Shown: one piece after another, positions 14,501-32,655 of the stretch
Numbering within the stretch: position 1 is the stretch's first letter
Layout of the letters: the number at the start of each line of letters is the position of its first letter
Assembly (NCBI GenBank): GCA_029263395.1
Contig: JAJCXO010000291.1
Coordinates: 1 to 32,655 of the forward strand
DNA from: Acidobacteriota bacterium
Lineage (GTDB): Bacteria; Acidobacteriota; Thermoanaerobaculia; Multivoradales; J023
Length of the DNA stretch: 32,655 bases
Direction: 5' to 3'
The notes under the pieces: model-generated
The model's input: only the letters and a program-made list of their open reading frames with translations
Databases searched by the model: none
Told to the model about the DNA's origin: nothing
Made by a program: the position numbers and the translations under genes

Positions 14501-17500
14501 ATTCGAAAACAACCCGCGAGACATCAAACGTTGCGTCCTGAGCTCGAATACCATCTCGCGCCGAGCCGCGGACCAAGCCGTCCGACATCGACACGTCACT
14601 GACGTCGGAACGCAAGATCGCCAACGTGCTGGCGTCGGTCGTCGAGCCACCCCAGGCAAGCACAAAATGCCGCAGCAGGTGACCAGAGCTGCCAACCCGG
14701 AGCCACACCTGCCCCCAATCACCAGCAGCCGGAACAGTGGCACCACTATCGCCGTTGGTATCGCCAGCGTAGTTATCGTCGGCCAGCGAGGTGAAAACCA
14801 CCGGCTGGGAAGCGGTACCGTCGGCCACGAGCGAGCCGAAGACATGTAAATCGTTCGAGGGGCTAGTCCCCTTGACCACCGTTCCCGGGGACAGATCCAG
14901 GGTTGCTCCCGACTGTACCGTGAGATCGCCGTTCAGACGCAACGCGAGGTCAGCCTGGGCGCTGAGATCGATCGCCAACAAACCGTAAACCGATCCGACG
15001 ACACCGATGCCGTTGGTGCCGTTGCCCGACACCGCATTCCCTCGAACCGTGACTTGCCCATTGACTTCGTGCAGATCCAAGTCGACGGCATGTCCACCAT
15101 TGTCCTTAAAGGTGCCGCCGTCGAGGACCAGATCCAACTGCCGGGTCAGATTTTCGAGTCTCAGACCGTTCCCGGCATTGTTCTCGAGCCGGACCCGCGT
15201 CAAGTCGATGTCGATGTTGAAGCCATAGATACCATCCTGGGCGGAATGCTCAACGAGGGTATCCTCGACCAGCAGATTTTCGGTATCTACTCGCAAGATG
15301 GCCTCAACGGCACTCTGGCTTGCGGATCCCCCATAGGCCAACACAACATGGCGCAGTAGGTTGTCCGATCTGCCAGCGCGCAGATAAATGTGGCCCCAGT
15401 CGCCGGGTGCTGGACTGGTCGCCCCACCGTCACCATTGGTGTCGCCGCCGCGGCTATCGTCCTGCAACGAAGTGAACACGACCGGTTGAAACTCGGTTCC
15501 CACTGCGGTCAAGGTGCCACGCACGTCGAGATCGTGGCCGGCGGCGCCAACTTTGAACACCGTACCCCGTGACAGAGTCAGATTTGCACCTCGACGCACA
15601 AAGAGGTCGCCGGTCAGCCGCAGGGCGAAGTCTGCCTGACCGCTCCAGTCGACATCCAACCCGCCGACGATCGTGCCAGCAAGGGCTACACCATTGGTGG
15701 CGTTGCCACTGGCGGTGTTACCACCCGAGACGATCCGCCCCGCCACCTCTTCGAGATCGAGGAACACGGCATGGTCGCCATTGTCGCGGAACACATTGGC
15801 GTTCATCGTCAAGTCGACTTCGCCGGTGAGGTCGGTGAACAAAGCGCCTGAGAAGACATTGTTCTCGATCGTCATTCCGGTCAGATCGAAGCTCCGGTTG
15901 AAGCCATAGATCCCGTTCTGTGCCGAATGACGGACCACGGTGTCAGAAATCTGCAACCGATCGGTGTCGACCCGCAATAGAGCCACCGTATTGGTAAACC
16001 CAGCGGCGCCGCCATAAGCCAATACACAGTGGTTCAACACGTTGGCTGTGCTGCCGACGCGTAGCTGGATCTGCCCCCAATCGCCGGCAGCCGGACTGCT
16101 CGCGGCGCCGTCGTTCTCGGTATCACCACCGTACGAGTCGTCATGGATCGAAGTGAAAACCACCGGCTGGGCGGCGGTGCCGACAGCATTCAAGCTGCCC
16201 CAGACCTGCACATCTTGACTACCACTGGCACCCTTGATCACCACACCAGGAGACAATGTCAAGCCTGCGGACGGGCGAACCGTGAGGTCCCCCGCCAGCG
16301 CCAGTGGCAAGTTGACTTGCTGGCTCCAGTCGAGCTCGAGGTCGCCCGTGATGGTTCCGACGATGCCAACCGCGTCGGTACCGTTATCGGCAGTGACATT
16401 GTCCCGGGCCGTGATCTGACCGGCAACCTCATCGAGATTCAGAAACACCGCATGATCGCCGTTGCGCAAGTAAGTCACGCCCAACAGACTCAGATCGACC
16501 CGACCTCGCAAGACGTTGAATATCGCGCCGTGCTCGGCATTGTCTTCGATCCGCACCCCCGTGAGGTCAAACGTCGCCTTCGAGGCATAAAGACCATCTT
16601 GCTGTGAGTGCTGAATCACGGTGTCGGACAACGTGAACTGATCGCTGTCGACCCGTAACGCAGCCAGGGTGTCAGTCACGCTGGCACCACCGTAGGCCAA
16701 TACGGTATGGCGTAACTCGTTACCGATACTGCCAGCGCGCAGCCAAATTTGCCCCCAGTCGCCGGCCGCCGGGCTAGAGGTATTGCCGTCGCCATTAGTA
16801 TCGCCACCTTGGGAGTCGTCTTGGAAAGACGTCAAAACCACCCGTCGGCCGGCGGTACCGTTCGCCACCAACCGCCCCCTAATGTGCAGATCGCGAGTCG
16901 CTGCGTCACCCTTGAGCACCGTACCCTGAGAGAGAGTCAAGGTGGCTGCCGAGGCAACCGTCAGATCACCGACCAGTCGCAGCGCAAAATTCACCTGCTC
17001 GCTGGAATCGACCGTGAAGTCGCCGTAGATCGCTCCACGGATGGCGGCTCCGTTGGTGGTGTTGCCGGCCGCCGCGTTGCCCGCCAAGGTGACGCCACCG
17101 GTGGCATTGATCAAGTCGAGGAATACAGCGTGACCACCGTTATTGAGGAACGTGTTGTCTCGCAGACTCACAGGTGCCCGGCCCAAGGTGCTCGAGAAAC
17201 GAACTTGCACGCCATGGCTGCCGTTGGCTTCGAACCGCGAATCGAGAATCTCGGGTGACGCCCCGGAGGCAAACAAACCGACTTGGGCGGATTCGGTCAC
17301 TGTGCAGCCGTCGACCGTCAACGCACTGGTATCGGTTCGAATCTGAGCCAAGTTTCCAGCCGCGGCGTTGCCGCCATAGGACACGACACAATGTTCGAGC
17401 CGGCTGCGCGGGCTGCCGGTGCGGAAGTAGATCCGTCCCCAATTACCCGGGCTCGGGCTCGAGGTGTTGTGGTCATTGTTGGTGTCCCCGGCAACCGAGT

Positions 17501-18893
17501 CATCGCGGATCGAGGTAAAAACGATCGGCTCGTCTGCGCTGCCGACGGCGTTCAAGATGCCGTTGACGATCAGATCCGACGAGCCGCTCTGTAGCTTGAC
17601 CACCGCTCCCGGAGTGATCCGCAGCTCGCCGCCCCCGGTCACCGTCAGATCGCTCGAAATCACATAGGGGAGCTGAGGATTGATCCCCCATTGCACCAAG
17701 CCGGCCAGGGTGCCGCTCACTTGCACGCCAGAAATCTCGTTTCCTGTACCGACATTACCGCTGACCTCGCCGGTGGCGCCGTTGACGTACTCGAGCTCCG
17801 CCGCAGCGCCATGATTGTCGACAAAGGTATTGTCGGTGACTCTGGAGGCGTTGGACCGCGATCGTGCGGTCAACTTCACCGCCGCCCGATCATTGCCGCG
17901 GAAGGTCGAGTCCTCCACTGTTACCAGGCCATCGTTGCTCCACAAACCAAGCTCATCGCTGAACGCCAGGGTTGAGCTCAGCAGGCTCACGCTGGCACCC
18001 TGGGCGACGTAAACCAGCGCATCGAAGCTATCGAGCGTCGAGCCGCCGTACTCCAGCCGGGCGTGCTCGAACCTCGCTTCACCGCCGCTGGTCACATCGA
18101 TGCCATCCCAATCACCACGCCGCAAGCGGCTGCGGTTGGAGGTGAAGACCGGCATGCGGGCTGCAGTACCCTCGGCCAGCAGCGTGCCCTGGACCACCAT
18201 GCCAATCTCGCTATTGAACTTGACGACGGTGCCGGGCTCGAGGGTCAGCGTGATGCCACTCGGAATGACCACGTCACAGGTCACGATATACGGGCCGTCG
18301 AGCACCATCCACGTGGTGTCGACAGCGATCGTCCCACAGACAAAGGTTGGGCCACGGGTGACCAGATTTTCATCGGTGACGGCGTTGTTTCCGGGAGTCT
18401 TGTCAGGACCATGCAGGCCGTCATCACCAATCTGCGAGGTGAAGCTGATGGTGGTGCCGACCGGTACGCTGGTCGAGACCGTCACTGCGAACAGCGCCGC
18501 ACCAGTTTCGGCTACCTCGAGATCGAATAGATCCAAGGTGTAGGTGCCGTCGGTTCCCGCCTTCAAGCGCCAACCATCGGAGCTCTCAGCGGGATTGAAG
18601 GTGGTGTTGTCGGGGACGGTGGCAGTCAAAACCACCCCGGTGGCGATGTCGACCCCCTGGTTGGTGTAGACCAGCTGGTAGACGTCGGTTGCACCCTTGG
18701 CGGTGATGGTGCTGCCGTCGTCGGGCTCGAGTACAAGATCGGCTCCCGGACACTCAGGACAGGTCGACCCGGTGAACGAGAAGTCCGGCACCGGCTCGGG
18801 TGGCGCTGGATTAGAAGCCACAACCATCGGTGCGAGTGCGGCGCAGAGCGCCACCCGCAGCATCGATAGGACCATGGATCGGCGTCGACTCAT
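1..18893 (-). CDS. Giant exported multidomain surface protein (partial, C-terminus beyond left edge)
   Basis: The frame is open without a stop from the ATG at 18893 to the left edge, at least 6297 codons. I translated it throughout. Residues 1-26 form a signal peptide (Arg-rich start, hydrophobic core, VVA/S cleavage site). The order after that, in approximate residues, is: DUF11-like 55-182; beta-helix of seven ~226-aa repeats 183-1755, capped by a WWGASSGPL motif; beta-sandwich 1782-1918; two DUF11 1917-2177; CARDB 2178-2300; FG-GAP propeller 2302-2769; CARDB; DUF11; two PKD 3024-3211; thrombospondin-C-like lectin 3215-3424; two PKD; DUF11; CARDB; Vgb/NHL propeller ~3870-4265; beta-sandwich; two CARDB; second FG-GAP ~4595-5012; CARDB; DUF11; two Big_9/cadherin-like; then 79-aa Ig-like repeats to the edge. 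No catalytic domain is evident. An adhesin or matrix role is inferred from architecture. Its C-terminal anchor or sorting signal is not visible. It is translationally coupled to the upstream giant gene. Confidence 0.93.
2520..3070 (-). other. Two Big_9/cadherin-like domains in the giant protein
   Basis: Two consecutive ~90-aa units show the usual marks of the Big_9 / tandem cadherin-like family: AVDDxxTTDED or [11 protein letters not shown] near the start, VLANDSD or PLANDSD, YTPxxxFxGxDxFxYTI in the second half, and INDPPVA at the junction. They link the last DUF11 domain to the 79-aa Ig array. The D-rich loops suggest calcium binding, as in related domains; this is inferred, not shown. Confidence 0.85.
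3860..5110 (-). other. FG-GAP/VCBS beta-propeller, second copy
   Basis: This ~415-aa block contains repeated calcium-loop motifs of the FG-GAP type ([44 protein letters not shown]). It ends in the motif [11 protein letters not shown] followed by SWLEHNSYR. It is flanked by CARDB domains on both sides and followed by DUF11, the same neighbourhood as the copy at 10590-11990. It is a paralogous duplicate inside one protein. FG-GAP propellers occur in integrin alpha chains and many bacterial surface proteins, where they mediate adhesion. Confidence 0.88.
6100..7320 (-). other. Vgb/NHL-like beta-propeller domain
   Basis: About 400 residues show repeated blades of the virginiamycin-B-lyase/NHL kind. 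Examples are [59 protein letters not shown] and [11 protein letters not shown], each a variant of the D-x-x-G-x-VW blade motif. It includes a D-x-N-x-N-G calcium-type loop (DRNGNGVID). It follows a CARDB domain and is followed by an unsplit beta-sandwich (about 5860-6100). No evidence of lyase activity; a binding role is more likely. Confidence 0.8.
8625..9250 (-). other. Thrombospondin C-terminal-like lectin domain between PKD halves
   Basis: About 205 residues resemble the L-type-lectin fold of the thrombospondin C-terminal domain, with [19 protein letters not shown] and a late LQVFVDGVL strand. The domain is preceded by the conventional PKD opening NAAPVV and followed by [15 protein letters not shown], which continues a PKD domain. 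The lectin-like domain therefore seems to be inserted in the first loop of a PKD domain. Family recognition is by motif only. Confidence 0.7.
10590..11990 (-). other. FG-GAP/VCBS beta-propeller, first copy
   Basis: This ~465-aa block has at least six Ca-loop motifs ([55 protein letters not shown]) and ends with [11 protein letters not shown] followed by SWLTHNTYR. It lies between two CARDB domains and is followed by DUF11. It parallels the copy at 3860-5110 blade for blade, which indicates an internal module duplication. A long plus-strand open frame across this block is only an antisense effect of the Asp/Gly-rich codons. Confidence 0.9.
13640..18345 (-). repeat. Seven ~226-aa right-handed beta-helix repeats in the giant partial protein
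   Basis: The landmark GDWGxI (or a variant) falls at about 18100, 17435, 16749, 16072, 15389, 14709 and 14030, spaced 665-686 bp. Each unit carries LTV-like coil rungs, a hydrophobic VVFTSxxDDS strand, a DTNGDG calcium-type loop, SSPAxGDWGQI, a V(L/V)AYGG turn, VDT-x-x rungs and DNGxHAVFLD. The block ends with a WWGASSGPL cap, seen at 13720-13766. This is the pectate-lyase/parallel beta-helix type of repeat; no catalytic site is evident. Confidence 0.88.
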
Positions 18894-18902
18894 CAGTACC
18901 CC
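18891..18902 (-). promoter_or_regulatory. TGATG stop-start overlap with weak Shine-Dalgarno
   Basis: The TGA of the upstream giant gene (18895-18893) shares its A with the ATG of the downstream giant gene (18893-18891). A GGGG run at 18902-18899 lies five bases before the ATG and is the only Shine-Dalgarno candidate. This is the classical layout for termination-reinitiation coupling. It implies that the two giants are made from one transcript at linked levels. Confidence 0.88.
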
Positions 18903-21900
18903 AAAGAAACGCTCCGCAACACCGGACTGGAGGCGACGGTACCGCGCAGGGTCGCACGGAATTGCACATAACGGCCGGACGGCAGTCCTTGGGCCTGGTT
19001 TTGAGTCAATCGCACCCAGCCCTGTTCGATCTGTGGCGTACCCGGTGGACCGCCGGGCGGTGGACTCGGGCTGGTGCACATACCTGCCTCCGCAGCCTCA
19101 ACCAAGGCCTGGACTTCGGCTGCCGTCAGCGCACGATCGAAGATCGCCAACTCGTCAACCCGACCTGGGTAGTACCGGCTGTCGAAGCTGGCGCGCGAGC
19201 CAATTCCGATGTTTTGCGTGCATTGGGTCATGGCACCGGAGTAGGCACCACTCGCCACCAGCACACCGTCGACGTAAAGCCGGATGCGTGAGCCATCGTA
19301 AGTACCGGCTAGATGCGTCCAGGACGCCAACGGTACCGCGTTGTCAGCCTCCACCGACCGCCACACGCCGTTGACTTGCACAAATTGTCGCGGACGCTGA
19401 CCGTTGTTGCCTTCGTTCAACACGGTCAGCAAGCCACAATTCGCACCATCCCCCTCCTTGTAGGAAAGGATGCTCTCTCGGGTGTTGGTGGCACCTTCGC
19501 GATAGACCCACATCTGAACCGAAGCGTTGGTGAAGGTGCCGAAGTTGGCAACTTCGGCCCGGTCGTTCGAACCGTCGAATTGGAAGGCCTGACCGACCAG
19601 ACCGTCGGCATAGGTAGCACCCCCGGCCAAGGTGGCATCGTTGGCGTTGATCGCGTCACTGCCATCACTCTCGGCACGCCACCAAGAGACGGCGCCGGAT
19701 GGGATATCGAAACAGCTTCCCACCACACAACCGGCGGCAGTCACCGCGGTCTGTGCAGGAGTTGTTGGGCAGGCGTCACTGGTATCCGCCACGCCATCAC
19801 CATCACTGTCCGGCTGACACATACCGGCACCACCCGCTTGATATAGCTCGTCGATCGCCGGCGCGTCCAGCGCCGTATCGAAAAGCGCCACGTGCTGAAT
19901 ACGACCGTTCATATAGTCACTGCTGGCATCGTTCGAGAAGCCGATGTTGACTCCCGTCTGGCCAGTGAAATTCGACGACGACTTAGAGCCGGAAGCGCGT
20001 TGGACACCGTCAACGTAGAGCTTCTGCCCACCCACACTGCCTCCGAAAACATGCACGACATGGTGCCAAGCATCATCGGAAAACGTTGTGCCGGAGGTAC
20101 AAACCACCTCGTTGTTCCACACCCGCCCACAGAGGTTGCCTCCCGACAGATAAAGGTGGCGGTCGTGACCGCTGGCCCCCAGGGCTCCGGCATCAACGGA
20201 GAACAGGCCACAACTGGCACAGGTGGTCCGGAACCACAGCGAGAGGGTGTAGGAGGTCTCGGAGACATTGATATCGACTTCGACGTAGTCATTGGTGCCG
20301 TCGAAGAGGAAAGCCTGAGCATCTGCGAGACCATCGGCAAACCGTGTGCCGCGGCGCAGAACGCTATCGCGATCACCTTGGATGTCCCGCGAGTTGCCGT
20401 TACCAGGCCACCAGGCTGACAGACTGGCCGGCGGTGCGGCGCAGCGTGCGGCGGAGATCGATCCGGGAGCGTCAGCAGCGCGCACCTCGATGGTCAGCTC
20501 TCCCCCCGCAATCGTATCCACCGTCGTGCCTGGTAGCTCGAGAGCGTTCCACGCAAGTGTTGTGAGATCGGCACCAGCCGGCAACTCCAATATGCCGGAC
20601 GTGACCTGCCCTTCAGTGACGCCCGCGTCCAGCACCGCATGACCAGCCGCATCTACCATCACACCGTCGAATGTGGCGCCAGCCCACGGCGCTTGTTCGG
20701 CCAAAGCTCCACCGGTCGCATTGATTAAAGCCGAAGCCTCGACCTGGTTGCCGTCCGTGTTGCCGTCGGCATCCACCGCCTGCAGGTTGAAATACCAGCG
20801 CTCGGCGGACAAGCCAGGGACCGTCAATTCCAAGCTATATCCCGCCACACCAGCCACCGGCGCGACGGCAAGCAAGCTGCGAGTGGCCGAACTCGAGGGA
20901 TCGACCGGGGTCAAGGTGCTGTAATAGACGTTGTACAACACCGACGACTGGGCATCGGATGCCGGTTCAAAATGCAATGTCGCAAAACCGTCCCCAGCTT
21001 CGACAAATTGCACTCCAACCAAATCGTTCCAAGTCGGCACCGCAAGATCGTTCTTTGGTGTGACGCAGACTTCCCGTGACGGCTGGCTCTCTCGGCCCTG
21101 GCCATCTACGGCTCGCACTCGGTAGCAGTACTCGGTTTGATTGACTAACCCGCGATCGACAAAGATCGGATTCGCCGACACCTGCACGAGATCAGCATTA
21201 ACTCGCACTTCGGCCCCAACCGGCAGCTGACGTCGGAAAACGGCATAACCGGCTAGATCAAGCTCGCTATTGGCTTGCCAACTAACCGTCGCTTCACCAC
21301 CACCGGGCTGCACCGTGAGCATAGCGGGCGGCACCGGTACATGGGCGCTGAGTTCCAACCAGCCGCTGAAGTCGACGTTGTTGCTGACCCGATCACCGAG
21401 CCCGGCCGGGTTGAAGAAGCCACCCGATGCGGAATCGTCGGAGTCATCCAACGGACCGCTGGCATCACCCCACCAGTTGTTGTTGGCGAAGAGGAGCGTA
21501 CCGGTGTCGTTACGGATACCGAACGCCGTATTGTTTTCGATATCGCTGTTGCTGATCTGCGGCGAACCACTGGTGACCAAACGTAGGCCGTGAACGTTTT
21601 GCAACAAGCGGGCGCCAGTGATCGACGGGCTGGCTTCCGCAACCAAGATACCGTCGTGACTGCTGGCTCGTGACGTAACGCCGACCAACGTTGGCGTCGA
21701 CCGGTAAACCGTGAGGTTGGCACCAAGAGTGCTCGATGCGCTGACGTAACCTCCGTATTCAACCGTACAGTCGACCAAAAACTGGTCGCTACTGATCGCC
21801 TGATCACGGTAGCTCAGACCCTTCCAGAAGCCCGGGGTGGGAGTCGAGGTGTTGGCGGTGAAAGTGACACCGGTGGCCTGTAGCCGACCCGCGTAGCCAA

Positions 21901-24900
21901 GCAAGTTGGAATCGCGACCGATGATCAATCCGGTGCCGGCATTAAAACGCACTTCGCCACCACCCTGAATCAACAGCGTGCTAGTGCGATCACTGCTGGT
22001 TGCAGCATCACCCCGAACCGTCAAATCGGCGAGCACGATGTAGGGCAAATCGGTCGGCCAGACTCGCGTCTGAACGTCGCTGCCACGCCCCATGATGCCG
22101 CCATCGACCGCGATACCCGCGGATTCGAAGGCATAACCTTCCAAGCGATTGCCTTGGATTGCGGTCAAGACCGTATTGGGACCGATACCGATCGGGAAGG
22201 TGCCACCACGCAACGTGCTGCCGGACACCGTGATGGTCGAGCCATTGAGCGCTCGCACCCCGGGCCCGGCACCACCCTCGATCTCACTCTCGGTGATCGT
22301 CGCCACCGAACCCGAGGTCAAATATACCCCCGCGCTCGATGTGCCGAGCACCCTGGTATTGCGCAGATTGACGCTGGCGAGACGAATCTGTACCGCCCCG
22401 CTGGCGCTGCCCCCCGCCCATTCGACCGTGCAGTCGTCGAGATAGCTACCAGACGATGTGGTATCGCGAAAGTAGATACCTTGCCACGCACCTGGAACCG
22501 GTACTTCGGTATTGGTCGTGAACACCACCCCGGTGGCTTCGAGCCGACCGGCGAAGCCGGCAAAATTGTTGTCATCGTAACCGATGAACAGCCGCGTCCC
22601 GGGGGCGAAGCGCACCGTCGTGTCCGCGCCCACGATCAATGTACTGGTGCGGTCAGTGCTGGTCGCGGCAGTGCCCCGAACTTCGACCGACCCCAGCACG
22701 ATGTAGGGCAAATCACCGCCCGGCCAAAAGCGTGTCTGGAGTCCAGAGCCTGCACCCATGACGCCGCCATCAACCGCGATACCGCCTCGATCAGTTGCGT
22801 ATCCTTCCATGCGGTTGCCGCGCAGATACAGCAGCTCGGAATTCGGTCCAATCCGCACCGGATAGGAGCCAGAACGCAACGTCGTATCGGCCAGCGACAA
22901 ACGCCCGCGATCACGAATGCGGATCGCGGCATCCGAGCCGCCTTCGATTGTGCCACCGGTGATGACGGCGGTCGAAGCATTGGAACCACTGAGATAAACG
23001 CCAGCAACCGACGAGCCAAGCACGCTGGTCTCGAACAACCCAACCGTGGTCTGATTGACCTGCACCGCGCCGCTGGCCCCGCCCCCGGCCCATTCCACGG
23101 TGCAATGGTCGAGGTAGGTTTCACGTCGGTCGGCGAAAGCCGAATTCCGAAAGTAAATCCCCTGCCAGAAACCAGGGACAGGAGACTCCGAGTTGGCCGT
23201 AAAGACAACCCCTGTCGCCTGCAGCTTGCCAGCGAAGCCGGCCAGGGTACTGGAATCACTACCGATGAAGAGCCGGGTATCGGCCGCAAAACGCACCTCG
23301 GTATCAGCGCCGATAATCAAGTTACTGATCCGGTCGCTGCTGGTCGCAGCATCACCCCGAACTTCGATCGATCCCAACACAATGTACGGCAAGTTGCCCC
23401 CGGGCCAAACCCGGGTCTGCACACCGCCGCTTGCACCCATGATCCCGGCATCCACCGCGATTCCCGCATGCTCGAAGTCGTAACCCTGCATGAGATTGCC
23501 GCTCAGGTGAGTGAGATTCGAATTGGGCCCCATGCGGATCGGATAGGCGCCGCTCCGCAATGTCGAACCGGACATTGCCAGGACGGCTCGGTCACGGAGG
23601 CGGACTGCGGCGTCCGAGCCACCTTCGATCTCGCCGCCGTTCACAAAGCCGGAGGTGGCGCTCGAACCCGTCAGGTAAAGACCTGCCGACGAGGTGTTCA
23701 GGATTCGCGATTCATGGATCCCGACCGCAGTCCGGTTGATTTCCACTGCGCCGTTGGCTCCACCGCCCGCCCACTCCACCGTGCAATGATCCAAATAGTT
23801 CTCGATGCGATCGGCGGTCGCTGAGTCTCGGAAGTAAATGCCACCCCAGAATCCAGGGGTTGGGGTATCGGAGTTGGCGGTGAACGTCACTCCCAAAGCG
23901 TTCAACCGGCCGACGAATCCCCCTAACGTGCTGCTGTCACTGCCGATCAACAACCGGGTACCGGCGTCGAACCGCAATGAAACTCCTTCGCCCAGAAACA
24001 GCGTGCTGGTGCGATCGCTACTGGTCGACGCATTACCGCGCACTTCCAAGTTGCCACGGATCAGATAGGGCATGCCACCTGCCGGCCAAACCCTTGATTG
24101 CGTGCCACTACCATTGCCGATCACACCGCCATCAACCCCAATCCCAGCCCGTGTCGGGATATAACCCTGTGCGACGTTGCCTTGAAACCGTGCGATCGAG
24201 ACATTCGCCTGCATGCGCACCGGATACGAACCACCTCGCAGCAGGCTGTCGCTCATGGTCAAAGATGAGGTGCCGAAGATCCGGACACCGGCATCACTAC
24301 CGCCTTCGATCTCACTGTCGCTGATCGTGACCGACGATTCATTGACCACGTAAACACCTGCTGTTTGCGGAGCCAGGACCTTAGTACGACGCAAGGTCAG
24401 GCCCATCCGCACCACTTCGATGGCGCCAACAGCGCCACCACCGCCGGCCCACGAAACTTCGCACCCGTCCAATAGATTGTTGGCGGCACCGTTGCGTGCC
24501 GAATCGCCAAAATGGATGCCTTTCCAGAAGCCTGGGGTCGGTGTTGTGCTGTTGGCGGTAAAGGTCACATCGTTGGCCAACAACCGTCCTTGCCACCCGC
24601 CCAGAGTGCTGTCATCGCGCCCAATCCGTAGCTCGGCATCGGGCTCGAAACGAACCTCCGTCGGTATCTCGCCGCCGATGCGCAGGGTGCTCGTGCGATC
24701 GCTGCCGGTGGCCGCATTGCCCCGCACTTCGATCAATCCGAGCACGATGTAATCCAGGTCTCCGGGCCAAATCCGGGTCTGGGTACTACTGCCAGAGCCC
24801 ATGATGCCAGGCTCGACTGCGATCCCGTCTCGGGTTGGCCCGTAACCCTCGATGGTTGTACCGCCGAGGGTCCGCAGAACGACGTTGGGTTGGATAATGA

Positions 24901-26590
24901 TCGGATAGGTACCACCGCGCAGCGTCACTTCGACCAGTGACAGTTGCGATCGGCTAATGGCACGCACCCCTTCGGCGGCACCGCCTTCGATCTCACCACC
25001 GTACATGGTCACGGACGAGCCACCACGGTTGAGGTAGAGGCCACGATTACCGGTGGTCCGGATCACCGATGCGTTGCGTAGATCCAGAGCCGAATCTCTG
25101 ACCGTCACCGCGGCGCTGGTACCGGTACCGCCACCGCCCTCCACCACACACGCGTCGAGAAAATTGCTGACCGATGAGTCGGCGAAGTAGAGCCCTTCCC
25201 AGAATCCCGGGGTTGCAACCGCCGGTCGGGTGGTGAAGGTCACTTCGGTCGCCTTTAGGGAGCCTTGAAAACCTGCCAATGTATTGTCATCAGTACCGAT
25301 CGTGAGCCCGGCATCCGCAGCGAAACGTACCGTCGTCGGCATTCCTTCGCTACCGATCACCAAAGTCGAGGTTCGATCGCTGCCAGTCGCCGCGTTGCCG
25401 AGCACTCGGACGTCCCCGAGGATCAGGAACGGCAGGTCGCCGCCTGGCCAAGTCCGAGTCTGGGTGCTGCTCGAGTTGCCGATCAGGCCACCGTTGACCG
25501 CCACCCCGGCCTGCTCCAAGGCATAACCATCCAACGTGTTGCCGGACAATGCCGAAATCGCCACATTGGCATCGATCAGGGCTGGGAAACTGCCACCGCG
25601 TAGGGTGTTGCCGGTCAACGTCATCGACGACGTGCCTTGCACCCGCACCGCGGGTAGCGTGCCGCCGCCTTCGATCTCGCTATCGGTAATAGTCGCCGCT
25701 GCACCGGTGGTGACATGGACTCCGCTGGACAAAGAGTCGCGGACGATGGTGCCGTTACGGAACACCGGCCGCGAGCGGTTGATGACCACCGCTCCACTGA
25801 CGTCAGCGCCGGCAAACTCCACCACACAGCCGTCGAGGAAATTGTTCGAGCCACCGTCAGTGGCCGAATCGTCGAAGCGGATCCCCTGCCAGTCGCCGGC
25901 GGCCGCAGTGGAGCGATTGGCGGTAAACGTCACCCCTGTCGCCTGCAGGCGGCCGCGAAACCCGGGGAGGGTATTTGTCGAGCCTATGATCAGTCGCGTC
26001 CCGCGCTCAAAGTAGACAGTGACGCCGGATTGGATGATCAACGTCGAGGTCCGGTCGCTGCCCGAGGCCGCATTACCTCGCACCTCGACGACGCCGGTCA
26101 CCACATAGGGGCTGTTGGCGACCGTCCAAGTGGTTGTTCTCGGACTCGATGAGCTGCCGATGATGCCACCACCGACGAAAGTGCCAACCCGCGGTGTCGC
26201 CCAGTCTTCGTTCGACACACCACTTTCACCGGTGCCGTCCACCGCGGTCGCGACGTAATAGTACGAAGTGTTGTTGGCGGCCGCGGCGTCGGTGAACGAC
26301 GTGCCAGTGAGTCCACTGGCCAGCACCGCACCATAAGGACCACCCTCCGTGGTGCTGCGATAAACGTTGTAACTCGTGGCGCCGGTCACCGCGGTCCAGG
26401 TGACGATCGCCTGCGCATTGGCGGGGCGGGCAGCAAGGTTTGTGGGCGCAGCGGGTGCAGCAAACGCAGGTGGGGCGATCAAGCCAAGGACCGTGGCCGC
26501 TGCCAAACATAGCCCCCCAGGCAATCCTGCCAGCACTCTGCCCAAAGAAGCACGAGTGCCCTGCCAAACACTGTACTGCAATCGCAACAA
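18893..26590 (-). CDS. Giant exported beta-helix/LamG surface protein (2565 aa)
   Basis: The signal peptide covers residues 1-44 (long hydrophobic stretch, APPAFA/APA cleavage). Then follow an Fn3 domain 45-135; seven ~226-aa beta-helix repeats about 139-1720, ending in a WWGDASGPL cap; two Fn3-like domains about 1753-1948; the first half of a beta-sandwich about 1977-2041; LamG about 2054-2258; a thrombospondin type-3-like Ca loop ([15 protein letters not shown]); a second LamG about 2297-2504; and the second half of the beta-sandwich 2521-2565. No catalytic motif is seen. The likely role is a cell-surface or secreted adhesin that binds glycans or matrix through the LamG domains; this is inferred. 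The start is TTG: an in-frame TAG lies at 26605-26603 and a strong GGAGGG at 26599-26594. TTG 26587 has slightly better spacing. First gene of the two-giant operon. Confidence 0.95.
18896..20660 (-). other. Beta-sandwich apparently split by an inserted LamG-TSP3-LamG cassette
   Basis: The segment at about 20660-20470 reads like the first strands of a beta-sandwich seen in many surface proteins ([35 protein letters not shown]). The expected closing strands ([24 protein letters not shown]) appear only at 19030-18896, after two LamG domains and a type-3 Ca loop. LamG marks are WWPGNGN or WWRAES, FDGxNDYVEV or [15 protein letters not shown] or [16 protein letters not shown] and I(G/A)FSND-like strands. 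An intact relative is at about 5860-6100 in the other giant. Confidence 0.72.
21395..26180 (-). repeat. Seven ~226-aa beta-helix repeats in the 2565-aa protein
   Basis: Unit starts marked by G(I/V/L)(I/M)G-x-G/S near 26175, 25497, 24814, 24134, 23452, 22774 and 22107 are 667-683 bp apart. Each unit reads [16 protein letters not shown], a [15 protein letters not shown] strand, FTANSxTPTPGFWxGIYF, [12 protein letters not shown], a turn to ITxSEIEGG, and LRGGSYP-IRxGPN. The last copy is truncated and ends in [11 protein letters not shown]. The repeats are homologous to those of the downstream gene but lack its DTNGDG loop insertion. Confidence 0.9.
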
Positions 26591-28048: not shown

Positions 28049-29563
28049 TCACCGGACCACCCTCAACGCTTCGTCGAGGCTGATGGTGCCGGCCACCGCT
28101 TCCAGGATGGCAGCACGGAGCAGCGGTGTCATCCCTTCCTCCTCCGCGGCCTGGGCAATGGTTGGCGTCGCCACCTTGTCAGTGACTAGATTTCTCAGAC
28201 GCGGGGTCATCCGCAACAGCTCGAAAATTGCGGTCACGCCAGCCACCCCGGTCCCGTCGCAGGCCTTACAACCTGGAGCGGCGTAAAATGACAGGCTCTC
28301 GGCGGCGGTGGCGTTGATTCCGGCCTGGATCATCTGCCGTGTTGCTTTACGATCTCGCTCGACCGGACGACGGCACTCGACGCAGAGCCGGCGCACCAAC
28401 CGCTGCGACACCGCGGCTAGCACTGACGAAGAGGCCAGGAAAGGTTCGATACCCATATCGATCAACCGATTGAACACCCCCGCCGTAGACTCCGAATGTA
28501 GGGTGGTCAAAATCAGGTGCCCGCTGAGTCCGGCTTCAACCGCGGTGTCGGCGGTTTCTTGATCGCGAATTTCGCCCACCATCATCACGTTGGGATCTTG
28601 CCGCAACACCGCCCGCAACGTCTGGCTGAACGACAAGCCAACCGTATGATCCACTTGCGTCTGGCTGAGAAAAGGCAAATCGATCTCGATCGGATCCTCA
28701 ATGGTGGCGATCGAGGTAGTCTCGCCACGGTTCAGGTGGATGTGGGAGAGTGCACTGTACAGCGTTGTGGTTTTGCCGCAGCCGGTTGGCCCGGTGAACA
28801 CAATCAGACCCTGCGGCTGCGTCAACAGGTCTTCGAAGTCCAGCCTCAGGGACTCCGGCATACCCAACTGCATCAGATCGATCAGACCATGGCCGGCACG
28901 GGCCAATCGCAGCACTACTTTTTCACCGTGGTGGGTCGGCAGCACCGACACTCGCACATCCACCGCACCCTTTGGGGTCTCGATATTGAGACGACCATCT
29001 TGGGGTAGGTCGGTCTGATACGTCGTCAGACTCGACAAAATCTTCAGGCGTCGCACCACCAATTCATGATGCGCCCGCGGCACTGTCAACACCTCCGTGA
29101 GCTCTCCTCGGACCCGCCAGGCGACGCGAGTGTGGAGATCCTGCGGTTGAATGTGCACATCGCTGGCACCGACGGTAATAGCGGCGCTCAGCAACTCATC
29201 CACGAAGGCGGGCGCATTCGGCCGTCGCTTGAAATGGCGCCCGAAATCGAGATCTTTTGAGACCAAACGTGCCGACATCGGTGCCGCACGGCTCTCCGGC
29301 GCCAACTCGACCAACGAAGCTTGCGGGGCCCTTTCGCCAAGGTGGGCGCCCTGATCCAGCAACCGCGCCCCTATGGTCGCCACCACTGCCAGCCCGGCGG
29401 CAACCTGGACGACGCGGGACGATAGCGCGATCGTTCCTAGGTCGCGAAGAATTATCCAGGCGGCGGATAGATCGGCGGGACGCCAAAAGAGGTAAAGACA
29501 AACCAACCCCGTCACCGTGACGAGCACAGCCAACCATCGAAGCAACCTGGCAAATCGGTCCAC
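28049..29563 (-). CDS. GspE/PilB-like type II secretion/type IV pilus ATPase with N-terminal membrane helices
   Basis: This is a secretion-superfamily ATPase. Counting from an upstream TTG at 29659 (536 aa), it has Walker A GPTGCGKT at 290-297, Asp box TIEDPIE at 319-325, Walker B NVMMVGEIRD at 357-366, His box LTTLHSEST at 384-392, and a zinc-type tetracysteine C426-x2-C429 / C464-x2-C467, as in GspE and PilB. The N-terminus is unusual: two hydrophobic segments (about 40-58 and 78-101) stand where GspE/PilB proteins normally have a soluble MshEN/N1 domain. I prefer GTG 29563 (504 aa), because the TTG extension crosses 13-bp tandem repeats that look non-coding. No strong Shine-Dalgarno supports either start. 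First gene of a pair with the PEGA protein. The pilins or other T2SS genes are not in the window. Confidence 0.88.
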   Translation of the reverse strand: MDRFARLLRWLAVLVTVTGLVCLYLFWRPADLSAAWIILRDLGTIALSSRVVQVAAGLAVVATIGARLLDQGAHLGERAPQASLVELAPESRAAPMSARLVSKDLDFGRHFKRRPNAPAFVDELLSAAITVGASDVHIQPQDLHTRVAWRVRGELTEVLTVPRAHHELVVRRLKILSSLTTYQTDLPQDGRLNIETPKGAVDVRVSVLPTHHGEKVVLRLARAGHGLIDLMQLGMPESLRLDFEDLLTQPQGLIVFTGPTGCGKTTTLYSALSHIHLNRGETTSIATIEDPIEIDLPFLSQTQVDHTVGLSFSQTLRAVLRQDPNVMMVGEIRDQETADTAVEAGLSGHLILTTLHSESTAGVFNRLIDMGIEPFLASSSVLAAVSQRLVRRLCVECRRPVERDRKATRQMIQAGINATAAESLSFYAAPGCKACDGTGVAGVTAIFELLRMTPRLRNLVTDKVATPTIAQAAEEEGMTPLLRAAILEAVAGTISLDEALRVVR

Positions 29564-29608
29564 GGTCGCAGTGTACCGGACCCAGTGCAGAGGCGACAGA
29601 ACCTGACG

Positions 29609-29647
29609 AGTGCTTGTCGACAGTGCTCGTCGACGGTGCTCGTCGAC
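29609..29647. repeat. Three 13-bp tandem repeats (RGTGCTYGTCGAC)
   Basis: Units 29609-29621, 29622-29634 and 29635-29647 are contiguous 13-mers, each ending in the palindrome GTCGAC; a partial fourth follows. A 13-bp unit is not a multiple of three. They lie between the divergent GspE-like gene and the short repetitive ORF, so they are more likely regulatory or non-coding than part of the ATPase N-terminus. Confidence 0.8.
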
Positions 29648-29722
29648 GGTGCGTGCCAATAGGACACCTGCAGACTGGCAGTGTCGCCTCGATCACTCCT
29701 GAAAACGGCCAGGGACCTCGAA

Positions 29723-30019
29723 ATGAGTCAAATAGTTAGTCCATTCGACTCCCCCACCCCGTTCGCACCCGAAACTATCGCGTCCGGTAAATTACCGAGA
29801 GCCTCTGCAACGGAAACAGTCACGCCCGGTAAATTACCGAGAGCCTCCGCAACGGGAACCGTCGCGCCCGGCAAGTTACCGAGAGCCTCCGCAACGGGAA
29901 CAGTCGCGCCCGGCAAATTACCGAGAGCCGCAGTTCCGCAGAAACACGGCATCGCGAAGCACGGTCTCACGACGCCTTTGGCAACCCCTCAGCCGAGGGG
30001 GTACTGGAAAATCAGCTAA
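29723..30019 (+). CDS. Short repetitive ORF of unknown function (98 aa, 14-aa repeats)
   Basis: The ATG at 29723 is preceded by AGGGA at 29711-29715 with seven-base spacing, which is the main support for translation. The product carries about four copies of a 14-aa unit (GKLPRASATGTVAP) between residues 21 and 74, then a basic, Pro-rich tail ending WKIS. It has no signal peptide, membrane segment or known domain. Most differences between repeat units fall in third codon positions, but the minus-strand frame has the same third positions, so this does not prove plus-strand selection. The DNA repeat may instead be the functional object (see the palindrome array). Divergent from the GspE-like gene, convergent with the cpYpsA gene. 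Confidence 0.42.
   Translation: MSQIVSPFDSPTPFAPETIASGKLPRASATETVTPGKLPRASATGTVAPGKLPRASATGTVAPGKLPRAAVPQKHGIAKHGLTTPLATPQPRGYWKIS
29786..29930. repeat. 42-bp tandem repeats each containing the palindrome CGGTAA-A-TTACCG
   Basis: Units begin at 29786, 29828, 29870 and 29912, all exactly 42 bp apart; a partial unit precedes at about 29765. The first two contain the perfect dyad GGTAA-A-TTACC, and units three and four carry it with one or two changes (GGCAA-G-TTACC, GGCAA-A-TTACC). The remaining 30 bp (gagcctccgcaacgggaac...) is also well conserved. Forty-two bases is close to four DNA turns, so the palindromes lie on one face of the helix. Confidence 0.92.
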
Positions 30020-30043
30020 GCCTCGACGCCCAAACCAGGAAAC

Positions 30044-30556
30044 TCAGATCCTCTCAACCACGCCTCGAAGAACCTCCAACATTAACCGATAGGTTGAGTC
30101 GCCGATTCCAGGAGCTGAAGATTCGCTGGGACCGCCGACGTTGAGCACACGGATCCCCAAAACCCGTATCCAATCCACGATCTTCTCTTCAGCGTCTGGA
30201 TCACTGGGATCACAGATATGGATCGGCCGCTGATAGCGCAACGCAACCGTCGACATCCAATCGGTCCCGGGATCCCGAATACCCGCAAGATTCTCTGGCT
30301 TCAGAACCAACGTCGCATCGGAGTCGCGGACGTTCCATTCCGTCCGCTGAGATCTCGGGACATCTGGCGCAAGCTCGCTGCGTTCATGCGGTGTCTCAAT
30401 CAGTGGAAAGATCTCGGGAATCACCCCGCCTTCCGAGTGTCGACCAGGCGGACACCAACCCCCGATCGCCAGCCCAGCCGTGAAGGCGGCACGGAGCGCG
30501 GCCTGGTCGACACCGGTTTGACCTCCAGAAACAAGGCGTCGAAAAAGCTCTTGCAT
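30044..30556 (-). CDS. cpYpsA / putative molybdenum-carrier SLOG-family protein
   Basis: The sequence has the family signature of Pfam PF12694 (circularly permuted YpsA, formerly MoCo_carrier): SGGQTGVDQAAL near the N-terminus, GGWCPPGR, IPEIFPL, RTEWNVRDSDATLVL, and LNVGGPSESSAPG near the C-terminus. Length is normal for the family. SLOG-type Rossmann-like domains bind nucleotides or nucleotide-derived ligands. The molybdenum-carrier label is historical and the true ligand is unknown. I chose ATG 30556 because family members start only a few residues before SGGQTG. An upstream TTG at 30580 would overlap the preceding gene's stop by four bases (TTGA). It follows the GNAT gene in the same operon. 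Confidence 0.85.
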   Translation of the reverse strand: MQELFRRLVSGGQTGVDQAALRAAFTAGLAIGGWCPPGRHSEGGVIPEIFPLIETPHERSELAPDVPRSQRTEWNVRDSDATLVLKPENLAGIRDPGTDWMSTVALRYQRPIHICDPSDPDAEEKIVDWIRVLGIRVLNVGGPSESSAPGIGDSTYRLMLEVLRGVVERI

Positions 30557-30576
30557 CGCCCGACGAAGACCACAAA

Positions 30577-31389
30577 TCAACCGAGCCCATATTCAGAAAA
30601 GTAGCCACAGGGTTCGAAGCCGAGGCGTTCGTAGACCGGCTGCCCTTCTGCTGAGGCTTGTAACGCCCCGACCGTCAGCCCCGCTCGACGGCCTTCGTCG
30701 AGAACCTTCCAGGTCAGCGCCATGCCCAAGCCGCGTCGACGGAAGGCTTCGGCGGTTGCAACCATGTGGACGCCCGCGATGCCGCCGCCGATAAAAAGCT
30801 CGCTGACCGCGGCGGGCTCGCCATCAACGGTGGCGACGAAGAGGCGCATTGGGCACTCGGACACGAGCACAACCTCCGCGGCTCGCTCGAAGAAGTGCTG
30901 GATATCGCGGTCGGGCGGATCACCGAGGTTGGCCAGGACGCTGGCGAAGTCGGCGAGCTGTGCCGCGGTCGCAACCCGCTCGATCGTGGTGGCGGCGGGC
31001 AGGGGCACCTGATCAGGCACCTTGGTGAGATCGATCGTCATGCCGAGCTCACGCTCCTGCTCCCGCAGACCGCGACGACGCAGCCGCGCTTCCAAATCCA
31101 CTGGCCGTGAACACGGACCAACCCACCAGGTAAAAGGTCGCCCGGTCTGCCGCACATCGGCGAGAGCCTCGTCGATCCGTGCGTCCGCATCACGCTCTGC
31201 CAGACGGGCGGCGAGGATCTTGTTGAAAGTATCTACCCCGAGCCCAGAATCAACAACAACCAAACCGTCGCGACGCTCCACATCCATATCCGGAAGACGG
31301 TCCTGGATAAGGACCACATGTCCGAGGAGGTTCTCCTCGACCGCTTCGACCAACGGGCTAGGGGCGGTATCGATGACGGATTCGTACAT
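30577..31389 (-). CDS. GNAT-family N-acetyltransferase
   Basis: The 270-aa product has a C-terminal GNAT fold. LFVATVDGEPAAVSELFIGGG forms beta strands, VHMVATAEAFRRRGLGMAL carries the acetyl-CoA P-loop motif (RRRGLGMA, 217-224), and ASAEGQPVYERLGF (245-258) is the usual last strand/helix. The N-terminal 120 residues look like a degenerate GNAT-like half, giving a tandem architecture. The substrate (small-molecule amine or protein) is not predictable. Start ATG 31389 has no clear Shine-Dalgarno sequence. It is the upstream gene of a pair with the cpYpsA protein. The five-core repeat array starts 43 bp upstream. Confidence 0.88.
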   Translation of the reverse strand: MYESVIDTAPSPLVEAVEENLLGHVVLIQDRLPDMDVERRDGLVVVDSGLGVDTFNKILAARLAERDADARIDEALADVRQTGRPFTWWVGPCSRPVDLEARLRRRGLREQERELGMTIDLTKVPDQVPLPAATTIERVATAAQLADFASVLANLGDPPDRDIQHFFERAAEVVLVSECPMRLFVATVDGEPAAVSELFIGGGIAGVHMVATAEAFRRRGLGMALTWKVLDEGRRAGLTVGALQASAEGQPVYERLGFEPCGYFSEYGLG

Positions 31390-31431
31390 GGCGGAGAGGT
31401 TAGCAGGTCCAGGAAAGAGCCCAGAAAGCTC

Positions 31432-31641
31432 GATTGAACGTCGATTGTGGTCTCGGTACCGCTGGGAGACCCGGATCGAGCATCGATCCTACGTTAGGCA
31501 CGGTCGGGATACCCCGATTGAGCCTCGATCGCAGTCTCGGTACCGTTAGAAGTCCAGAGTCGAACATCGATCGCAGTCTCCTCGACGTCGAGAGACTACG
31601 ATTGAGCGTCAATTGTTCTCGCGTCTACGACGGTCTACCAT
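31432..31641. repeat. Five degenerate dyad cores spaced exactly 42 bp
   Basis: Cores at 31432, 31474, 31516, 31558 and 31600 share the 16-mer GATTGARCRTCGATYG (with variation). Each is an imperfect or perfect dyad ATYGA-N3-TCRAT. The copy at 31474 is perfect (ATCGA-gca-TCGAT). The copy at 31600 is perfect with paired changes (ATTGA-gcg-TCAAT). A second partly conserved block (cagtctcggtaccg) follows in some units. No ATG-started ORF with a good RBS fits. The array fills most of the gap between the GNAT gene and the integrase. Confidence 0.85.
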
Positions 31642-31665
31642 ACGTCTCCATATCCTACGTAAACG

Positions 31666-31704
31666 TTGCTATTAAACGCTTTGCGGTGATAGTATGTCTA
31701 CTAT
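31666..31704 (+). promoter_or_regulatory. Probable integrase promoter with operator-like inverted repeat
   Basis: TTGCTA (31666-31671) and TAGTAT (31690-31695) are 18 bp apart and each match the sigma-70 consensus at four of six positions. The perfect inverted repeat ATAGTA-tgtc-TACTAT (31689-31704) overlaps the -10 element and fits an operator for a repressor, or the integrase itself. The surrounding 100 bp is the most AT-rich part of this gap. Confidence 0.5.
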
Positions 31705-31771
31705 GGAGCACGCCAAAACGCTACCGAAATCGACCTCGCGTGTTTGCTCATAGTTTGCTCGCCAGAAGACC

Positions 31772-31777
31772 AGGAGG
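31772..31777 (+). promoter_or_regulatory. Strong Shine-Dalgarno of the integrase
   Basis: AGGAGG is six bases before GTG 31784 and fixes this start. The GTG also overlaps, as GTGA, the stop of an upstream repeat-spanning frame that I do not accept as a gene. Confidence 0.85.
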
Positions 31778-31783
31778 TGACCC

Positions 31784-32655
31784 GTGAAGCCAGGTTTGAC
31801 GACCACCCTTGAGACAGCAGCCAGCGCGAAACGACCCAAGAGGGCTCCCAACAGAAGGAAGCTAACCAAGCGGGTGATCGACGCTGCTCGGTATAAGTCG
31901 CCCACTTCGCATCCTCGTGGTGCCTTCTACATCTGGGATACCGAGTTGGCTGGTTTCGGCTTGCGTGTCTACCCATCCGGGCGGAAGGTGTTCCTTCTGA
32001 CTTATCGGATCAAGGGCAAGCAGCGATTCTACCAACTCGGTCGCTATGGGGAGCTCACCGTCTACCAAGCCCGCACAGAGGCTCTTGACGCGCTCAGGCA
32101 GGCACGACAGGGCACCGATCCTGCTGCGGATCAGATGGCGTATCGCAGGTCTCCCACCATGGCAGATCTGGCGGAACGATTCATCGAAGAGCATTCGAAA
32201 ATCAACAAGAAACCAGTCTGCGTCACGGCAGATCAGCGGAGGCTCCGCAAGCACATCCTTCCCCGCCTCGGTCATCGCCGGGTAATCGATATCTCCCGCA
32301 CCGACGTCGCAGAGCTGCACACCAGCATGGCAGCAACACCTGGCGCAGCGAACACTACGCGGGACTTGTTGTCAAAAGCTTTCAGCCTAGCTGAAGTTTG
32401 GGGCTGGCGTCCTGAAGGCAGCAATCCGACCCGGCACGTCAAGGGATACAAGATGCCAAAACGGGAACGCCATCTTTCGCCGACCGAACTGGCACGCTTG
32501 TCTGAGATCTTGGCCGAAGGTGAGCGGACAGAATCGATATCGCAGGAACCGGTTTCGGCAATCCGGCTTCTTATCCTCACTGGCTGTCGACTGATGGAGA
32601 TCCTGGCGCTGAAATGGGAATACGTAGATTTCGAAGGCCATTGCCTTCGACTGCC
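31784..32655 (+). CDS. Tyrosine-type site-specific integrase (partial, runs off right edge)
   Basis: At least 290 residues are visible. A basic N-terminal tail is followed by a DUF4102-like arm-binding domain (about 45-105: FYIWDTELAGFGLRVYPSG, LTYRIKGKQRFYQLGRYG, LTVYQARTEA). Then comes a SAM-like core-binding domain (about 125-210) and the start of the catalytic domain. TGCRLMEILALKW (about 266-278) contains the first catalytic Arg, R269. The remaining catalytic residues (Lys, HxxR, His/Trp, Tyr) lie beyond the window. Such integrases insert phages and genomic islands, commonly at tRNA genes. The start GTG 31784 has a strong AGGAGG. A likely promoter with an inverted repeat and a 42-bp-spaced repeat array lie just upstream. 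Confidence 0.93.
   Translation, partial: MKPGLTTTLETAASAKRPKRAPNRRKLTKRVIDAARYKSPTSHPRGAFYIWDTELAGFGLRVYPSGRKVFLLTYRIKGKQRFYQLGRYGELTVYQARTEALDALRQARQGTDPAADQMAYRRSPTMADLAERFIEEHSKINKKPVCVTADQRRLRKHILPRLGHRRVIDISRTDVAELHTSMAATPGAANTTRDLLSKAFSLAEVWGWRPEGSNPTRHVKGYKMPKRERHLSPTELARLSEILAEGERTESISQEPVSAIRLLILTGCRLMEILALKWEYVDFEGHCLRL

Follow-up and report, generated by a model that had tools for sequence, protein, structure and literature searches.

A noncoding 42-bp tandem array and a dispersed, mostly intergenic set of arrays of similar unit length in two genomes of one Acidobacteriota genus

Introduction

The described elements closest to the array reported here are MIRU, LTRR and REP/BIME. 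MIRU are minisatellite-like tandem units dispersed between the genes of one bacterial genus, and they form one related family with longer units. LTRR (long tandemly repeated repetitive sequences) have a unit of 37 bp and belong to a single sequence family, and the REP/BIME of enterobacteria often sit behind genes. A passage of PMC2267715 names MIRU, with a 2000 reference, and links REP/BIME to protein binding and to effects on mRNA; a passage of PMC2408588 presents the LTRR of filamentous cyanobacteria as short tandem units that are intergenic and dispersed. Among the full-text literature matches listed, taken by title and opening of the abstract and with subscription journals mostly outside, none describes a set of 42-bp intergenic arrays in a bacterium.

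Here we follow up a 42-bp repeat array in a window of 32,655 nucleotides (the whole stretch of DNA that was analysed) from an Acidobacteriota bacterium. We compared it with the rest of its genome (G000), with the sole same-genus genome (G001) and with further relatives.

Results

The initial annotation had described exact 42-bp repeats, and this array is real. TRF places the tandem array, which we call family A, at 29778-29929, with 3.6 copies, 90% matches and 0 indels; its units lie at 29786-29827, 29828-29869 and 29870-29911, followed by a partial unit from 29912, with start-to-start spacings of 42 and 42. In the gap that holds it, the lag-42 identity is 0.92 over 84 bases and the best lag besides 42 and 84 reaches 0.48, a periodicity far beyond chance. 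The whole 42-bp unit repeats, without the unique spacers of a CRISPR array.

The array lies between a gene for cpYpsA (circularly permuted YpsA, SLOG family; 30044-30580, minus strand; PF12694, E 1.4e-41) and an ORF for a PilB/GspE-type secretion or pilus ATPase (28049-29659, minus strand; PF00437, E 7.5e-103), upstream of the latter. TIGR02533 and TIGR02538 match the PilB-type ORF below their curated cut-offs, and its true start may lie further in; the codon model starts the gene at 29533. A 13-bp repeat, AGTGCTCGTCGAC, occurs in 3.4 copies at 29609-29652, at the 5' end of the listed ORF. Elsewhere in the window, an ORF of ~6,290 codons on the minus strand (3-18875) runs to the window edge; it contains 237-bp repeats (3.6 copies, 1-863), and its scanned part has beta-helix, DUF11 and CARDB domains. 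A 2,565-aa ORF on the same strand (18893-26590) has beta-helix, fn3, TSP_3 and laminin-G-like domains.

The palindrome CGGTAA-A-TTACCG had been assigned to every repeat, and it is perfect in two of the four window units. The 13-bp dyad CGGTAAATTACCG is found in unit 1 (29785-29797), unit 2 is likewise perfect (29827-29839), and the dyads of units 3 (29869-29881, CGGCAAGTTACCG) and 4 (29911-29923, CGGCAAATTACCG) each have one mismatched pair and keep 5/6 pairs. The proposed phasing agrees with 42 bp being four turns at 10.5 bp; since 43-bp families also exist (L115, L203), strict helical phasing is not required.

Two features go beyond the initial annotation. A second, decayed 42-bp array of about five units, which we call family E, lies 1.5 kb from the first (31428-31637); its lag-84 identity is 0.68 and its lag-42 identity 0.67 over 84 bases, and the best other lag gives 0.44. 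An inverted-repeat module, GAGTCGAATGGACTAACTATTTGACTC (29725-29751, minus strand), adjoins the first array. With up to 3 mismatches allowed, the 27-bp module pattern has 6 matches in the own genome, the window included, vs 0 for a reversed control. Its conserved tail, ATTTCGAGGTCCCTGGCCGTTTT (29702-29724, minus strand), was compared in seven copies set side by side and is partly changed in contigs C138 and C282. The module at 52.5 kb of C164 is accompanied by a family-A unit remnant at most, and beside the module at C282 no family-A unit was seen by eye.

A protein search located the family-A array at three further places of the own genome (C164, C120 and C138), and among 98 genomes, own included, it was found outside the own genome only in G001 (C312, E 8e-22). 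That search gave matches at E<=1 in 91/98 genomes, the best besides own and G001 being 6.4e-4, and we read the weak matches outside these two genomes as composition noise. Across the five family-A arrays (window, C164, C120, C138 and G001:C312), a perfect dyad is present in 4/22 units, one of the 22 being partial; the loci do not differ in the right half of the unit (columns 9-14, ACCGAG), whereas they do in the left half. The good conservation of the module and of the half-unit ACCGAG could mean function.

The repeat is in frame with the 98-aa ORF (29723-30019, plus strand), as had been observed: the ATG at 29723 and the first repeat GGT at 29786 share a frame, which reads through the array as GKLPRASATGTVAP units. 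A real small repetitive protein of 98 residues, or the repeated-core peptide precursor that had been suggested, would fit with the frame being open through the array in 3/5 family-A arrays and with the RBS-like AGGGA that precedes the ATG, but the remaining evidence makes it hardly credible. The codon at the ATG place is ATG in 2/5 family-A arrays only (window and C120), and in-frame TGA occurs in 2/5, once in C120 and twice in C138; the C164 and G001 arrays have none in their matched part. Differences between family-A loci per codon position were 0.289, 0.270 and 0.336, so that substitutions among the five arrays revealed no codon-position bias (permutation p 0.23). A codon model trained on long own-genome ORFs gave the 98-aa ORF -0.076 log-odds per codon vs +0.162 for the PilB-type ORF, and the 98-aa ORF has no Pfam match. 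We rejected a protein-coding repeat gene on the start codon, frame and codon evidence: neither frame, nor start, nor synonymous bias is kept among the family-A relatives.

Instead, the 98-aa ORF is most likely a by-product, a chance open frame over a noncoding array; its presence would follow from 42 being divisible by 3 and from the chance lack of a stop in that frame in the unit of this array. A by-product of stop-free repeats had been one of the readings offered at the outset, and the paralogues without ATG or with in-frame TGA bear it out. In the proposed contest between frame and DNA, the DNA wins in that paralogues break the frame and keep the 42-bp spacing; against this, the spacing is better preserved than the dyads. 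In other ~42-bp arrays there are single units of 38-45 bp, and these too speak against a kept frame. A further ORF of 80 aa across the array (29728-29970, minus strand; no Pfam match) is judged a by-product too. Its codon score of +0.044 is near that of the cpYpsA gene (+0.049), and codon score alone is insufficient to exclude it; its frame is lost in C120 and interrupted by a stop in G001, both of which count against it.

We then surveyed 72 own-genome stretches (1,324,985 bases, picked by contig number and place and thus non-random), 20 stretches of G001 (231,727 bases) and 20 stretches of family relatives (14 from G006, 3 from G002 and 3 from G004; 400,000 bases together). TRF was run on all of them and arrays of period at least 24 were counted. 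In the own genome 23/54 arrays had a period of 41-43, 82, 84 or 126, and in G001 5/11 had a ~42-bp period or a multiple of it, weak rows being included (L107 with 70% and L207 with 66% matches; L119 and L129 with only 2.0 copies). None of the 11 arrays from the G006, G002 and G004 stretches had such a period; the pooled rate predicts 7.2 for 0.40 Mb (P of none 7.5e-4). The sampled density of ~17 arrays per Mb extrapolates, as a rough figure, to ~185 for the 10.68-Mb genome, and the number of such intergenic arrays in this bacterium is probably well above one hundred.

Autocorrelation of 370 own intergenic stretches (134,579 bases) revealed the same period, with lag 42 at the top (z 7.8) and lags 84 (z 4.9) and 126 (z 3.4) also raised. 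After masking of TRF arrays, lag 42 was still first (z 4.5), just above 15 (4.2) and 21 (3.7). Lags 15 and 21 were raised in the relatives too and probably come from uncalled coding sequence, and lag 42 lay outside the eight top intergenic lags there. In G001 the unmasked profile was unreliable, with a high background and possibly N runs; with arrays masked, lag 42 was first (z 2.7), hardly above 21, 15 and 30.

When 31 unit consensuses were aligned circularly, with a threshold that 0.1% of shuffled pairs pass, 31 of the 465 pairs were joined by an edge; this gave 14 clusters, six of which hold two or more arrays. The clusters have no detectable sequence relation, yet a period of 41-43 bp is common to them. 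Families A, B and C are similar by eye around GGCATTTTACC; A did not join the others, and A-B pairs stayed under the threshold. Single units of 38 and 45 bp, the extremes in the segmented arrays, occur at decayed ends.

Among the genomes searched, dispersal is confined almost entirely to the genus. Family-B arrays, first reached through weak protein matches as arrays of the same period and other sequence, are present on 9 own contigs and 3 G001 contigs, and in these 2/98 genomes only; their middles are uniform and their ends decayed. Family E was found in 2/148 genomes of the class (G000 and G001). A 1132-base query made from 12 array pieces was searched with E up to 0.01. It gave 91 own-genome matches (sources included), 33 in G001 and a single weak one in G002, with no match in G003 to G006, and therefore several groups that are single in the sample are dispersed too. 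An exact 19-mer of family B occurs in 9 stretches elsewhere, titled Chitinophagaceae and allies, Legionella, Gilliamella and Micavibrio, in a contig collection possibly without close relatives, and we read these as chance.

Other repeats were seen during the survey. At two composite sites (L140:3990-4361 and G000:C121:39568-40247) two array families abut or lie side by side. A dispersed repeat of ~220 bp (L137:6956-7178) has matches in 13 other own loci among those examined, 70-90% identical and some short, and is also present in G001 (L159:2493-2713 and L160:5050-5234). GC-rich intergenic inverted-repeat elements with GCCCGGGGCTGG and its complement were recognised by eye at L140:3680-3935 and L163:690-1000 (approximate positions).

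Genes were called with our own codon model (~89% of the own sample), and the calls are imperfect, the cpYpsA gene having been missed. By these calls, 25/27 of the ~42-bp arrays of the own genome and G001 are intergenic vs 12/35 arrays with other periods (24 to 90; Fisher p 4e-6). The count of 27 omits one array, of period 126, that overlaps a weak ORF call. The arrays show two marks of dispersed intergenic minisatellites of the MIRU/LTRR kind: they recur at many sites as head-to-tail repeats with a single unit length, and they lie between genes and are noncoding, as judged by our gene calls and by the family-A frame not being kept.

Flanking pairs were convergent, tandem and divergent in 16, 20 and 5 of 41 cases vs 36, 129 and 75 of 240 own-genome background gaps of at least 200 bp, so that arrays favour convergent pairs (p 7.6e-4) and are depleted between divergent ones (p 0.014); the 41 include 18 hand-picked family-A/B loci, among them two where the module lacks a clear array. 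Several of the 41 come from G001, though the background is from the own genome only. The sampled arrays alone gave 8, 11 and 4 of 23 (p 0.034 and 0.23). Eleven rows found later gave 4, 5 and 2, two of them being one locus and one a weak match in G002. Ten flanking genes, the PilB-type ORF and nine next to sampled arrays, were scanned and showed no shared function. Beside one array is an ADOP-family permease, a TIGR03434 match below the curated cut-off; this family hints at Acidobacteriota. The convergent enrichment could mean a role at 3' ends and not mere tolerance.

Raw folding z means of the arrays were -1.43 and -2.03 vs -0.51 for control stretches, with a shuffle that destroys tandem repetition. 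When the unit was shuffled and then repeated, the mean z of 25 arrays was -0.70 (p 0.005), and arrays of other periods under a repeat-preserving shuffle gave -0.10 in genes and -0.22 between genes. The window unit had z values of +1.55 and -0.42, the family-B unit -1.04 and -2.95. In family E (40 units) the dyad centre had 385/713 Watson-Crick cells, the next best centre 224/673, and 413.6 were expected under column independence, which argues against covariation; family B showed none at its dyad centre either (500/1086 cells vs 494.8 expected). The largest excess in family B (398 vs 376.4) was at another centre, ~2 sd among 42 centres, and is read as chance, and family D (13 units) had 94 cells vs 87.2 expected. 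RNAalifold found no structure for families E, B and D, and for F a 7-bp stem without covariation. The palindromic stem kept by compensatory change that would mark REP/BIME was accordingly not seen in these families. Against Rfam, nine array loci had no gathering-level match, and window positions 29500-31900 gave one sub-threshold match, which lies outside the arrays. Compensatory hairpins had first been suspected by eye in several units, and the counts did not bear them out. Dyads are thus present in the sequence, and selection for pairing is unsupported.

At orthologous sites in G001, the picture differs between the two window arrays. The cpYpsA orthologue (66% identity) is accompanied on the corresponding side by a family-E array (L217:2180-2364); in the window a GNAT gene is interposed between cpYpsA and the family-E array. 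The PilB orthologue (80% identity) has no 42-bp array within 1.5 kb upstream. The match to this orthologue (G001:C467:25675-27228, L213) is reported with one internal TGA. Because the PilB and cpYpsA orthologues are on different contigs in G001, no empty site is demonstrable for the window array, and for this reason array mobility is inferred. Another orthologous gap holds different repeats in the own genome and in G001 (L102 vs L163).

Discussion

Our data show that the array is real and, by the tests applied here, noncoding, and that arrays of its kind, in many sequence groups, lie dispersed and for the most part between genes in the two genomes of the genus. The window array is probably a noncoding intergenic minisatellite, one of a genome-wide set whose unit is ~42 bp whatever its sequence and which has so far been seen only in this genus. 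We infer that such arrays lengthen, shorten and homogenise via replication slippage or unequal recombination, as the uniform middles and decayed ends of the family-B arrays suggest. Units or modules may occasionally be copied to new sites, and arrays would build up at sites that tolerate insertions, mostly behind genes. If the arrays have an effect, it would resemble that of REP/BIME, on mRNA 3' ends or local DNA topology, rather than that of a specific operator. The slightly stronger folding of array units than of unit-preserving shuffles counts against this explanation, and the period common to unrelated sequence groups is not accounted for by slippage alone.

For the shared period, common descent with similarity lost is the conservative answer and a physical or enzymatic ruler the bold one. 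In the latter case a genus-specific process would impose a pitch of 42 bp, or four turns, on unrelated intergenic sequences; hypothetical candidates include a polymerising nucleoid protein with a 42-bp step and an enzyme whose copying or recombination of DNA proceeds in such steps. The 14 clusters with their period of 41-43 bp throughout, the prominence of lags 42, 84 and 126 across intergenic DNA and the absence of ~42-bp arrays from the sampled relatives are consistent with such a process. However, 43-bp families and units of 38-45 bp occur, and the likeness of A, B and C around their shared motif leaves room for common descent, so that we regard a ruler as unlikely. The reading of the arrays as RNA, with each unit a transcript hairpin or the array forming or protecting mRNA 3' ends, gains from the enrichment at convergent pairs, from the family-B z of -2.95 on one strand and from the average z of -0.70 over 25 arrays. 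We give it only a slight chance, since the folding excess shrinks in the repeat-preserving shuffle, the window unit has z values of +1.55 and -0.42, families E and B lack covariation, E, B and D yield no RNAalifold structure, and Rfam has no gathering-level match in nine array loci. The initial annotation had likened the repeats to a cooperative operator or iteron array; that such an array controls the PilB-type gene or a replication origin is very improbable. The four-turn unit, the two perfect dyads and the position upstream of the PilB-type gene agree with it, but 18 of the 22 family-A units lack the perfect dyad, the half-unit ACCGAG being invariant between loci, family A sits by other genes too, the same period recurs with unrelated sequences at many sites, arrays are rarer between divergent genes than the background (5/41 vs 75/240), and the G001 PilB orthologue lacks a 42-bp array in the 1.5 kb upstream. 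A specific operator is therefore unlikely.

The minisatellite reading has a practical side as well: gene finders are warned that a repeat unit free of stops, if its length is divisible by 3, can yield a convincing false small-protein gene. At the sampled density, with nearly all arrays intergenic and near 42 bp, many unrelated sequences and none in the sampled relatives outside the genus, the set would be a bacterial counterpart of satellite DNA, with unit length kept better than sequence. If the ruler were true, an unknown machine or structural constraint would build or keep unrelated intergenic DNA as arrays of 42-bp pitch, much as a protein wrapping or copying DNA in 42-bp steps would do. 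Whether a length ruler, be it helical phasing, a nucleoid protein or a copying mechanism, shapes noncoding DNA thus becomes a testable question.

Comparison with known systems, drawn on organisation, places the arrays as follows. Iterons and phased operators resemble them in tandem spacing near whole helical turns and in the dyads of some units; here, in contrast, there are many sites, unrelated sequences and a poorly kept dyad. REP/BIME are likewise palindromic elements dispersed between genes, often behind them, and differ from the fixed-pitch tandem arrays described here, with their many sequence groups and no covarying stem. LTRR share the short tandem units dispersed between genes, but belong to another lineage, have another unit length and form a single sequence family. 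MIRU also consist of tandem units dispersed intergenically in one genus, as here; they are one related family with longer units, whereas the present arrays fall into 14 clusters with one period.
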